Origin: Anaerobacillus alkalilacustris
Lineage (GTDB): Bacteria; Bacillota; Bacilli; Bacillales; Anaerobacillaceae
Length of the DNA: 64,000 nt
Reading direction: 5' to 3'
Assembly: GCF_001866005.1 (NCBI RefSeq)
Contig: NZ_MLQR01000001.1
Location: 701,106-765,105 of the forward strand
Part shown: positions 7,601 to 63,133 of the stretch, piece after piece
How positions within the stretch are numbered: the first letter of the stretch is position 1
Layout: each line of letters opens with the position of its first letter
The notes under the pieces: generated by a model
What the model was told of the DNA's origin: nothing
Seen by the model: only the letters and a program-made list of their open reading frames with translations
Databases searched by the model: none
Made by a program: the position numbers and the translations under genes

Positions 7601-7772
7601 TTCTGCCACCACCTTTTTCCAGTTAAATAAGTCTTTTAATAAATTCAACACTAAATCTTCATTTCCTTCTTAAAAAAACGAAAAATTATAAAAATAAACT
7701 TAGTTTTCTTCATTTTTAAACAACGTTCACAAAATTTCCAAATCTAATAAACATATGCGCCTATTTATTAAC

Positions 7773-7989
7773 AAGAAAAGCGCAAGCGCCTTGGTCACGA
7801 GCAGCTGCTCCTGTGCCACTCCGTTTGCTCGTCGCAAAGCAGCTTCGAAGTAATCCAAGTAGTAGCTTCACTGGGGCGGCCTTTGACAGAAGCCGCTCTT
7901 TGGCTTCCGAAAAGGACTGAAGTGACCGAGCTCGTAGGCGCTGAAGCTAGACAGTTTCCAAGTTAGAAACTTATAAATTCTGATACTGT
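7773..7989 (-). repeat. Dispersed repeat, copy R1
   Basis: The copy is about 215 bp. Read in the sense of the upstream gene ridA it starts at the T-tract of the ridA terminator with ACAGTATCAGAATTTATAAG, passes GTCTAGCTTCAGCGCC, and ends GGCGCTTGCGCTTTTCTTGT. The interior carries AGCTGCTC-type palindromes. The outer ends match copies near 10.4, 12.7, 34.4, 45.3 and 54.0 kb. Confidence 0.85.
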
Positions 7990-10242: not shown

Positions 10243-10435
10243 CTTAAATCACCTTCTACTGTTCCATATGCTTAGGCTATTTTATCATTTGTTGCCTCTA
10301 CAAACCACAAATTTCATGTAAATCATGACAAAATTTTCTAGCGCTTACTCCTATTAGATTTTATCAGCATTACCTAGTAGAAAGAAGTATATAACCTTTG
10401 AATTAAGATTAAATGTATATTTTTCTTAAGCCTAT
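10243..10435. other. Spacer upstream of ispE
   Basis: No gene, RNA or convincing promoter box is seen. The stretch is AT-rich and carries whatever promoter drives ispE; the rest of the gap up to sspF is repeat R2 and a terminator. Confidence 0.4.
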
Positions 10436-10632
10436 TAGAAAAGCACAAGCGTCACAGCTCTAGGTGTAAAAAGAAATTATGCTTCTGCGCTTTCTAGTAA
10501 TGCTCTGAAGCAGGCTTCCTTTCATGTAGTAATTTAGGTCAGTAGCTTGACTGGGGCGAGCAAGCTTTCTAGTCGTTACGACGTTGGAGCTAGACAGTTT
10601 TCAAGTTAGAAATTTATAAATTCTGATACAGT
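10436..10632 (-). repeat. Dispersed repeat, copy R2
   Basis: This copy of about 195 bp lies downstream of sspF. In gene sense it starts ACTGTATCAGAATTTATAAA at the T-tract of the sspF terminator, contains TCTAGCTCCAACGTC, and ends GTGACGCTTGTGCTTTTCTA. The inner module GCTTCTGCGCTTTC...GAAGCAGGCTTCC is shared with copies near 30.8 and 34.5 kb and with the rRNA flanks. Confidence 0.8.
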
Positions 10633-12740: not shown

Positions 12741-13005
12741 ACAAGAAAAGCGCAAGCGCCTTGGTGGCGAGCAGCTGCTACTTTGCCACTCCATTTGCTC
12801 AGGAGCAATTGTTTTCCGTGCGACGAGTAATCGCAGGAGCAATTGTTTTCCGTGCGACGAGTAATCGCAGGAGCAAAGTAGCATGAAGCATCATCAAAGA
12901 AGCAATCCAGGAAGTCAGTGAAGTCAGAAACTTGACTAAAGTGACCGAGTTCGTAGGCTGCTTGCGTTAGACAGTTTCCAAGTTAGAAATTTATAAATTC
13001 TGATA
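12741..13005 (-). repeat. Dispersed repeat, copy R3
   Basis: At about 265 bp this is one of the longest copies. In gene sense it starts TTATCAGAATTTATAAATTT right after the rsmA terminator and ends GGCGCTTGCGCTTTTCTTGT. It shares a nearly identical stretch (12869-12945) with R6, and it contains a 34-bp tandem duplication. Confidence 0.85.
12801..12868. repeat. 34-bp direct tandem duplication inside R3
   Basis: A 34-bp unit starting AGGAGCAATTGTTTTCCGTG occurs twice without gap (12801-12834 and 12835-12868). A third partial copy, AGGAGCAA, follows. Each unit contains the palindrome CAATTG. Confidence 0.9.
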
Positions 13006-28429: not shown

Positions 28430-28544
28430 ACCTAGCAACGTCCTACTCTCACAAGGGGAAGCCCCTAACTACCATCGGCGCAAAAGAGCTTAACGATCGT
28501 GTTCGGCATGGGAACGAGTGTGACCTCTTCGCTATCGCCACTAG
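28430..28544 (-). rRNA. rrf: 5S ribosomal RNA (locus A)
   Basis: The reverse complement runs GTGGCGATAGCGAAGAGGTC ... GCCGATGGTAGTTAGGGGC ... GTAGGACGTTGC, a full-length bacillar 5S rRNA of about 115 nt. It is identical to the copy at 62343-62457. It is preceded by the usual 23S-5S spacer (TTATCTAGTTTTGAAAGAAT), but there is no 23S gene. Confidence 0.95.
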
Positions 28545-28591
28545 ATAATATATTTAGTTGAAAGAAATCATTCTTTCAAAACTAGATAACA

Positions 28592-28922
28592 GTCCCAGTG
28601 TGGCCGATCACCCTCTCAGGTCGGCTACGCATCGTCGCCTTGGTAAGCCGTTACCTTACCAACTAGCTAATGCGACGCGGGCCCATCCTGTAGTGTTAGG
28701 TAAACCCAACTTTCACTTTAGAACCATGAGGCTCCAAAGATTATCCGGTATTAGCTTCGGTTTCCCGAAGTTATCCCAGTCTACAGGGCAGGTTGCCCAC
28801 GTGTTACTCACCCGTCCGCCGCTAACTCTCATAAAGCAAGCTTTAATTGAGTTCGCTCGACTTGCATGTATTAGGCACGCCGCCAGCGTTCGTCCTGAGC
28901 CAGGATCAAACTCTCCATAAAA
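28592..28922 (-). rRNA. rrs: 16S rRNA 5' fragment (331 nt, locus A)
   Basis: From 28922 the minus strand reads GGAGAGTTTGATCCTGGCTC and continues through the normal 5' domain to CCACACTGGGAC, about position 320-331. There it joins the 23S-5S spacer directly. The remaining 1.2 kb of 16S, the ITS and all of 23S are missing. The locus sits where B. subtilis has rrnA. An assembly collapse is more likely than true loss, because locus B breaks at the same 16S base. Confidence 0.93.
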
Positions 28923-29045
28923 GTGTTTGATAAAGCTCAAAAATTTAAATTCATTGACGAGATATTTACTATCTCTTTAATTCGCTTGGCTGTGTGTTCA
29001 GTTTTCAAAGAACAATACTTTCGTCTTTAAATCGACAAGGATTTA

Positions 29046-33287: not shown

Positions 33288-33554
33288 TGCCGTGCACCTT
33301 CCTTTGATCAAGTTACCCCAGGCGTTACCTAAGCAGTTAGCTCGATTCAGGCGACTCTACGGCACACGGAAGGGGCCACTTACTGCTGCTTCCTTCCGGA
33401 CCTGACAGGGTTCATGGGTTTCCGTTGCGTAGAACCCAAATGTCAACACCACTTACTTAGGGCAGACCCCACGATAACAAGACCTAGGGAAGGGATTCCG
33501 TCTCGCTATAGCGGATTGCGAGTACAGGGCACCGCTACCTCCCCACCTAGCACG
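33288..33554 (-). ncRNA. ffs: Signal recognition particle RNA (large, 6S-like scRNA)
   Basis: The minus strand begins GTCGTGCTAGGTGGGGAGGT and contains the SRP domain IV hairpin CAGGTCCGGAAGGAAGCAGC with the GGAA tetraloop and the asymmetric internal loop. The 5' and 3' ends pair (GTCGTGC with GCACGGC). The length of about 267 nt indicates the Bacillus-type RNA with an Alu domain. It lies between tadA and dnaX, as in B. subtilis. Ends are approximate. Confidence 0.95.
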
Positions 33555-33748
33555 ACAAATTTATAAACTTTTTTACGCGCCATTTGTGTGACGCATAATT
33601 TAGTATAGACGTTTTCATAAAAAAAAGCAAGTGGACGAGGAGACTTGTTTTAGGAAAGGTAGTTAAAGTAAGGAAAAGGCTATGTTTTAAAGCTCATACT
33701 ATAATAAACTCAATTTGACCTTTCTTCCTAAAAGTTGATGTTTTTTAA

Positions 33749-34219: not shown

Positions 34220-34385
34220 TTCTTAACCTCCACTTCATGATCATACTTCCAATGCTATACCTTCATACCATAATGAAAATCCATAATGTTAATTTCATTA
34301 AACAACTATCAACCTTATTTGACAACACTCGTGTATAAATGCTGAGTATGACTTATTTAGAAAAAACTCTTTTAGTAGTATAAAT
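34220..34385. other. Spacer at the left edge of the accessory block
   Basis: No gene is seen between the tadA start and repeat R6. It must contain the tadA promoter. Confidence 0.45.
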
Positions 34386-34649
34386 AAGAAAAGCAAAAGG
34401 CGCCTGCCTAACGGAGACAAACACTGGAAGGTCGGCAAGTAGCGGTCTGCTCTTTGACCGCAATCTATGTGCTTCTGCGTCTGACAGCAATGCTTCGAAG
34501 TAGGCTTCCTCGAAGCAAAGTAGCATGAAGCATCATCAAAGAAGCAAACCAGGAAGTCAGTGAAATCAGAGCCTTGACTGAAGTGATCGAGCCGATGGCG
34601 ACTGAAGCTAGACAGTTTTCAGGTTAGAAATTTATAAATTCTGATACTG
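34386..34649 (-). repeat. Dispersed repeat, copy R6
   Basis: About 260 bp lie downstream of the ccm operon. In gene sense it starts CAGTATCAGAATTTATAAAT at the T-run of the ccmG terminator and contains TCTAGCTTCAGTCGCC. Its middle is almost identical to R3 (GCATGAAGCATCATCAAAGA), and it ends CTTTTGCTTTTCTT. Confidence 0.85.
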
Positions 34650-45262: not shown

Positions 45263-45297
45263 CATCTTTGTGAACATTTTTTGAACAAACTTAAAAA

Positions 45298-45363
45298 GAA
45301 AAGCGCAAGGCGCGCGCCTGGAGCTAGACAGTTTTCAAGTTAGAAATTTATAAATTGTGATTA
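45298..45363 (-). repeat. Dispersed repeat, minimal copy R7
   Basis: Only about 66 bp remain: both ends of the family (tail ATTTATAAATTTCTAACTTG...TCTAGC and head GCGCTTTTCT) joined by CTCCAGGCGCGCGCCTTGC. It therefore defines the smallest unit of the family. It lies just upstream of the nrfHA-1 FNR box. Confidence 0.85.
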
Positions 45364-53955: not shown

Positions 53956-54045
53956 ACAGTATCAGAATTTATGAATTTCTAACTTGGAAACTGTCTAGCG
54001 CAAGCAGCCTTTCGCTCGTGACCAAGGCGCTTGCGCTTTTCTTGT
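53956..54045 (+). repeat. Dispersed repeat, copy R8 (plus-strand orientation)
   Basis: About 90 bp: ACAGTATCAGAATTTATGAA, then GGAAACTGTCTAGCGCAAGC, ending GGCGCTTGCGCTTTTCTTGT. Its orientation is inverted relative to all other copies in the window, matching the plus-strand direction of the dpp operon that ends here. Confidence 0.88.
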
Positions 54046-55737: not shown

Positions 55738-55990
55738 AAAACTCCCATCCCTTAAAAAAGGGACGAGAGTTAACCCGCGTTGCCACCCTAGTTGTTAAGG
55801 ACATTATCCTTAACCTCTTAGCATCTTATTAACGGAAGATGAACCGGAACTTATCTAATAGAAGAAAAATCTTCGTTCAATAATCTACTCTGGGATGGAT
55901 TCACAAAAGTACTACATCGATTCTCACCAACCATCGACTCTCTGATCGTAGCTACAAATGTTACTATTTCCCTTCTCAGCATTTAATATA
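55738..55990 (-). promoter_or_regulatory. T-box riboswitch leader of serS
   Basis: The T-box AGGGTGGCAACGCGGG (55789-55774) overlaps the antiterminator. The terminator CTCTCGTCCC TTTTTTA AGGGATGGGAG with T6 follows. In Stem I, CAGAGAGTCGATGG and the specifier context GTGAATCCATCC (codon TCC, Ser) are visible. Expression of serS should rise when tRNA-Ser is uncharged. Confidence 0.92.
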
Positions 55991-56617: not shown

Positions 56618-56740
56618 CTTTCTTGAAAAGCGTAAGTACCTTGTTGAAACACAATAGACATTTATTCTGAAGCCAAAAGCTTTAGATTATGACTATTGTG
56701 TTTCAAGCTTAGGCACTAAAGCTAGACACCTTTCCGAATT
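56618..56740 (-). repeat. Dispersed repeat, degraded copy R9 (between pdxS and pdxT)
   Basis: Weak family ends are seen (GTCTAGCTTTAGTGCC and TACTTACGCTTTTCA in gene sense). The centre is a perfect 14-bp inverted repeat, TTGAAACACAATAG (56644-56657) and CTATTGTGTTTCAA (56693-56706). No terminator precedes it. Confidence 0.65.
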
Positions 56741-62457: not shown

Positions 62458-62543
62458 ATAATATATTTAGTTGAAAGAAATCATTCTTTCAAAACTAGAT
62501 AACATACATTTAAGATTCTTGAGTGTGAATTCAATTCTTATTT

Positions 62544-62874
62544 GTCCCAGTGTGGCCGATCACCCTCTCAGGTCGGCTACGCATCGTCGCCTTGGTAAGC
62601 CGTTACCTTACCAACTAGCTAATGCGACGCGGGCCCATCCTGTAGTGTTAGGTAAACCCAACTTTCACTTTAGAACCATGAGGCTCCAAAGATTATCCGG
62701 TATTAGCTTCGGTTTCCCGAAGTTATCCCAGTCTACAGGGCAGGTTGCCCACGTGTTACTCACCCGTCCGCCGCTAACTCTCATAAAGCAAGCTTTAATT
62801 GAGTTCGCTCGACTTGCATGTATTAGGCACGCCGCCAGCGTTCGTCCTGAGCCAGGATCAAACTCTCCATAAAA
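62544..62874 (-). rRNA. rrs: 16S rRNA 5' fragment (331 nt, locus B)
   Basis: The first 331 nt of 16S are present, identical in extent to locus A, and end at the same base (CCACACTGGGAC). They then join the 23S-5S spacer. The position next to yaaC-guaB corresponds to rrnO of B. subtilis, a complete operon there. The missing 4-5 kb is most simply an assembly collapse. Confidence 0.93.
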
Positions 62875-62925
62875 GTGTTTGATAAAGCTCAAAATAAAAC
62901 ATTGACGAGATAATGGTATCTCTTT

Positions 62926-63053
62926 TTTTGTCTAGCTTCAGACACCATCAACTCGAGACGCTTCAGTTCATCAAACGAAGTCAAAAAACACGACTTCTTT
63001 TTGTTGACCTTCCAGCGCTTGTCGTTGATAAGCGGGTGTCTTCCGCCTTTCAT
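62926..63053 (+). repeat. Dispersed-repeat-like insertion in the rRNA leader of locus B
   Basis: About 127 bp starting GTCTAGCTTCAGACACC lie after the hairpin GAGATAATGGTATCTC and T7, and before ATTCGCTTGGCTG. Locus A lacks the insertion (GAGATATTTACTATCTCTTT directly followed by AATTCGCTTGG near 28960-28990). It is a filled site against an empty one. Confidence 0.75.
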
Positions 63054-63133
63054 ATTCGCTTGGCTGTGTGTTCAGTTTTCAAAGAACCATCTTTTTTTAA
63101 AATTTACGTCGTTGTTTTTTAGCGACAAGAGTT

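Follow-up and report, generated by a model that had tools for sequence, protein, structure and literature searches.

Short hairpin-forming DNA repeats of the Bacillales that probably spread behind stem-loops with T-tracts: evidence from filled and empty rRNA leaders of Anaerobacillus alkalilacustris

The BOX elements of Streptococcus pneumoniae are modular repeats with variable middle parts. Group IIC introns use the stem-loop motifs of intrinsic terminators as insertion sites (PMC4424553), REPs are 20–40 bp long and carry GTAG or CGTC tags, and RUP is counted among the MITEs (PMC3733652). Intergenic stem-loop repeats of the Bacillus group include Bhal-1, of 74 bp, and bcr1, of 147–167 bp, which has been described as peculiar to the B. 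cereus group (PMC2267715).

The repeat family analysed here resembles group IIC introns in having a terminator stem-loop as its target and a fixed orientation, so that its target type has a precedent, but it is far shorter, encodes no protein, gave no ribozyme match (in the window, and for the insert at a lax threshold) and is not tracked by maturase genes. With the RAYT-moved REP, BIME and REPIN elements it shares the form of hairpin-forming interspersed DNA repeats that occur in clusters and arrays, and RAYT-like genes do exist in the source genome. However, the repeat lacks the palindrome with tag that characterizes REPs, its core of about 120 nt begins with GTCTAGC, and no copies were found beside either of the two RAYT-like genes of that genome (L208 and L209). 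Unlike MITEs, including RUP and bcr1-like elements, it has no terminal inverted repeats, as GTCTAGCTTCAG at one end does not match ATGAAAGGCGGAAG, the reverse complement of the other end, CTTCCGCCTTTCAT. BOX and RUP are likewise short, interspersed, structured intergenic repeats, and BOX is modular like this family, whereas the copies here stand right behind a stem-loop and T-tract and in arrays; BOX is set apart by its description. The bcr1 repeats of the B. cereus group and Bhal-1 of B. halodurans fall into a similar size class and form intergenic stem-loops, but are distinguished from the repeat by descriptions rather than by sequences. A search of the open-access literature on repeats of Bacillaceae, Bacillales and Geobacillus returned no description of the family, although subscription journals may hold one.

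The window, a stretch of 64,000 nucleotides from A. alkalilacustris (genus Anaerobacillus; source genome, G000), contains two rrn leaders, locus A and locus B. They were compared with the other leaders of the genome and with those of relatives, among them three genomes of the same genus (G001, G003 and G004) and one of another family (G011). The initial annotation had read locus B as a filled and locus A as an empty insertion site, and this is borne out by the following features.

62930–63053, plus strand: inserted repeat copy (124 bp) within the locus B rrn leader, oriented antisense to the rRNA, present at one point in 4 of 14 leaders (covariance model R1, 119.3 bits, E = 6e-29, with this insert itself in the training set).
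62907–62929, plus strand: pre-existing target at locus B, stem-loop GAGATAATGGTATCTC (62907–62922) followed by T7 (62923–62929); the same hairpin with T3 and without insert occurs in G001, G003, G004 and G011.
63054–63085, plus strand: right flank of the insertion at locus B, ATTCGCTTGGCTG and conserved rrn leader sequence, from the comparison of leaders.
28959–28992, plus strand: empty site at locus A, GAGATATTTACTATCTC (28959–28975), TTT (28976–28978) and AATTCGCTTGGCTG (from 28979), from the sequence and the leader comparison.

The insert runs from GTCTAGCTTCAG to CTTCCGCCTTTCAT, with CTTTCAT as its last letters, and comes to about 127 bp if some of the T's are counted. The 16S genes of the window (28504–28882 and 62524–62819) are cut to their first ~300–380 nt, with 5S directly after. 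This truncation is a draft-assembly artefact of collapsed rrn operons, and the leader itself lies close to unique upstream sequence.

We consider it probable, at roughly 0.7, that the insert represents a family of hairpin-forming DNA repeats of ~120 nt, found order-wide in the Bacillales, that spread one-way behind a stem-loop and T-tract. Elements of this family would insert in one orientation directly behind the stem-loop and its T-tract; the usual target would be the intrinsic terminator of a gene and, in the rrn leader, a hairpin that resembles a terminator and lies antisense to the rRNA. As the initial annotation had argued, the family appears to move, which we infer from filled versus empty sites rather than from observed transposition. 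If this is true, terminators serve a second kind of mobile DNA, besides group IIC introns, as landing sites, and a short non-coding element with a site preference like that of these introns is present in most sampled Bacillales families. With hundreds of copies per genome, such elements may shape 3′ ends and hamper the assembly of the genomes that carry them.

Most copies in the source genome start behind a T-tract as RYAKWATCAGAATTTATAAATTTCTAACTTGGAAACTGTCTAGC and finish in GCGCTTTTCTT, and their length ranges from 67 to 460 bp with variable middle parts. A 5′ module of about 35 nt, RYAKWATCAGAATTTATAAATTTCTAACTTGGAAAC, is common to most of them and was counted in 62 copies in 864 kb. The leader copies are without this module; like copies from other Bacillales, they begin with GTCTAGC. 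The kinship between the ends of the insert and the window repeats, which had been left to be checked, thus held for the core and the 3′ end, since one covariance model built on the ~120-nt core detects both alike (with the insert in its training set), and did not hold for the 5′ end, where the module is missing. The copies in the window are as follows.

7772–7984, minus strand: repeat copy with the 5′ module, after T7; hairpin weak or none by the test used.
10435–10627, minus strand: repeat copy after a hairpin and T7 (copy listing and upstream-context test).
12742–13004, minus strand: repeat copy after a hairpin and T7 (copy listing and upstream-context test).
34385–34645, minus strand: long repeat copy of ~261 bp after the terminator GGGACCGGTATGGTCTCTTTTTT (upstream-context test and covariance model).
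45295–45361, minus strand: minimal repeat copy of 67 bp after T7 (upstream-context test and covariance model).
53961–54044, plus strand: short repeat copy of 84 bp after a hairpin and TTTTATTT (upstream-context test and covariance model).
56625–56727, minus strand: diverged repeat copy lacking the 5′ module of ~35 nt (covariance model).

When 51 genomes of the order were searched with the covariance model, core matches were found in 42, reaching at least 71 per genome. The complete genome G002 held 91, many of them in head-to-tail arrays with a period of ~120 nt. The 3′ end of a copy, a hairpin with TTTTCTT, often directly precedes the next copy; because each copy ends in this way it is itself a target, which would give rise to head-to-tail arrays, and ordinary slippage could also have made them grow. 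None of the window copies matched Rfam release 15 above the gathering score, the insert region gave only a chance miRNA match and no group II intron at a lax threshold, and a consensus copy had no match in plasmid and phage collections; the family is apparently absent from Rfam. Rfam matches elsewhere in the window include a T-box leader (55756–55986, minus strand) and the large SRP RNA (33290–33555, minus strand).

We then turn to the structure of the repeat, for which 25 diverse copies were aligned. In the consensus helices 94.6% of cells were paired, with 94 two-sided changes, and none of 500 shuffles was equally good. G-U pairs made up 6 of 500 helix cells (1.2%) and A-C 5 of 500, versus 136 of 1,886 G-U (7.2%) in 86 tRNAs from the same DNA, a comparison in which the tRNA structures came from ARAGORN, a program that requires pairing, and the repeat copies are related rather than independent. 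Since selection on an RNA should leave room for more wobble on one strand, the near absence of G-U points to helix pairing that is maintained at the DNA level; a small number of recent master copies, or repair templated by the hairpin, could also have kept G-U low.

The lack of G-U wobble on either strand also bears on the possibility that the element spreads as RNA, retroposed by group IIC introns or in their manner. Such a route would fit the same kind of target, a terminator stem-loop with T-tract, and the fixed orientation, as these introns insert at terminators (PMC4424553), and the 3′ end of the element, a hairpin and U-tract, is a natural transcript end. However, over the copies there was no Rfam group II intron match, at thresholds that may miss degenerate introns, and the group II maturase PF08388 showed no association with the repeat (p = 0.77), being missing from 18 of 29 element-rich genomes. 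We therefore regard spread through RNA as unlikely.

Spread at the DNA level would call for an enzyme acting in trans that recognizes one DNA strand in its folded, single-stranded state, such as might arise at the replication fork, and that attaches the element after the T-tract. In its fullest form, this proposal makes the repeats order-wide mobile non-coding DNA hairpins whose target is a shape, a stem-loop and T-tract on single-stranded DNA, read by a putative enzyme; as each element would supply a fresh target at its 3′ end, arrays would lengthen in a single direction. We advance this proposal tentatively, as possible rather than probable. Among the RAYT, group II maturase and Y1 candidates examined, no mobilizing enzyme or autonomous partner was found. 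RAYT genes were present in 23 of 29 element-rich and 13 of 22 element-poor genomes (51 in all, p = 0.13), a weak co-occurrence short of significance. A Y1 (IS200-type) pseudogene within a copy (L210, G000:C29 ~96.7–97.2 kb) was rejected as an autonomous partner, being an ordinary degenerate insertion into the repeat, behind which another copy follows. The RAYT-like gene L209 (G000:C8:1161–1622), with an open frame of 269 aa, lies near an rrn leader.

The target proposed from the leaders, a stem-loop with T-tract, gained support from genome-wide counts. T4 or longer was found within 9 nt upstream of 53 of 62 copies versus 210 of 2,000 random positions, and a hairpin with T-run upstream of 39 of the 62 versus 19 of the 2,000. 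Intergenic T5 runs were filled in 27 of 370 cases with a hairpin versus 7 of 1,576 without one (odds ratio 17.6, p = 2e-14). Among 52 complete copies, the hairpin and T's lay upstream on the copy's own strand in 38, and the reverse arrangement was seen in one. Because the sequences of the upstream hairpins vary among copies, these hairpins are host sequence. Two of the rrn operon terminators of the source genome are filled and at least four are empty. In orthologous regions of A. arseniciselenatis (G005) elements are missing from several intergenic stretches, and at one site (#1) the terminator is kept in both species with different repeat copies in each; outside the rrn leaders, orthologous empty sites are too diverged for exact junctions.

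These counts have to be weighed against a reading without target recognition, in which copies land anywhere but are retained only downstream of terminators, where their effects are slight. The copies are indeed intergenic, the space 3′ of genes is tolerant, and 82 of 91 copies in G002 (90%) run with the replication fork, near the 82% of ORFs that do so; because of this ORF value, and because arrays are not independent, we claim no replication effect. Persistence alone, however, would leave distances varied, whereas copies start directly at the T-tract; it would also have to accommodate the 38-to-1 orientation, the rare use of T5 runs without hairpins, and the leader copy, which stands behind a hairpin that terminates no gene. 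We find it improbable. In A. arseniciselenatis, AAGTGTCAGACACC/GGTGTCTGACACTT repeats lie inside the loops of terminator-like hairpins (G005:C1 ~420–423 kb and ~443 kb), a second type of terminator-tied repeat.

We also aligned all 14 rrn leaders of the source genome. Four (C1:764025, C9:484, C1:217552 on the minus strand, and C1:780956) were filled with an insert of 120–124 bp and ten were empty, and the junction point was identical in all. The three other filled copies were 94–99% identical to the window insert (similarity among leader copies E = 1e-59 to 1e-74, not chance), while its best non-leader relatives in the genome reached ~75%. On this identity, the four filled leaders most likely derive from one insertion that then spread among operons, presumably by gene conversion. 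Before the junction, filled leaders had T5–T7 and empty ones T3–T4, so the element may bring the additional T's with it. In one empty leader the sequence is TTTAATTAATTCGC, and one A of the empty-site AATTCGC is missing from the filled leaders. No clear target duplication was seen; since filled and empty leaders differ only by T's and this A, one inside the T-tract would be indistinguishable. That the leader hairpin is not a true gene terminator, as first annotated, is confirmed by its position antisense to the rRNA.

To survey other lineages, 348 genomes of the order were searched for repeat copies lying no more than ~100 nt from the 5′ end of 16S. By the patterns used, leader copies were found in the source genome and in one family (f13: G018, G247, G269 and G331), about 5 of the 348 genomes; a further match, in G332, was discarded because it looks like chance and is not leader-like. 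In f13 the same leader position is occupied by repeats of different sequence types, and no empty state was seen. Entry into leaders may thus have taken place in two or more lineages, antisense to the rRNA in every case, or an old insertion may have been kept in f13; with two lineages, the leader events are few. A selected role in the rRNA leader, in processing or antisense termination, in place of mobile-DNA noise, would agree with the two sequence types at one place in f13 and with G269, where all 8 leader matches contain a copy. We hold such a role to be rather unlikely, as the segment is missing from 10 of the 14 leaders of the source genome and from the leaders seen in outgroups, and so few genomes of the order have leader copies at all.

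The polarity of the leader difference was examined in relatives. The empty junction, hairpin-TTT-AATTCGC, occurs without insert in G001, G003, G004 and G011, and the leaders of G050 are also empty, with the hairpin and T5. Because outgroups, one of them from another family, keep the hairpin, T3 and AATTCGC without insert, the empty state is ancestral and the leader target is older than the insertion. At the insertion point, 7 of 8 examined leaders of A. arseniciselenatis and the leader of a related MAG (G006) contain a shortened remnant of ~44 bp; the remaining A. arseniciselenatis leader is empty. These states are consistent with a copy that an ancestor of the present Anaerobacillus lineage acquired at the pre-existing leader site and that may later have been shortened in A. 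arseniciselenatis. That the empty leaders, including locus A, arose by precise loss of the segment is very improbable: the shortened form shows that internal deletions happen, but the exact empty junction is common to four outgroup genomes (one from another family), ten source-genome leaders and one A. arseniciselenatis leader. The rrn leaders offer a clean comparison of filled and empty sites, in which the ancestral state is known and the target terminates no gene, which makes DNA-level recognition directly testable. An rrn leader of G002, a genome of the same genus, contains a further additional segment, TTCTTACATAAGATGTG...CCTATTTCTTG, which lies on the upstream side of the hairpin at a different insertion point (L043, C1:~4373580).
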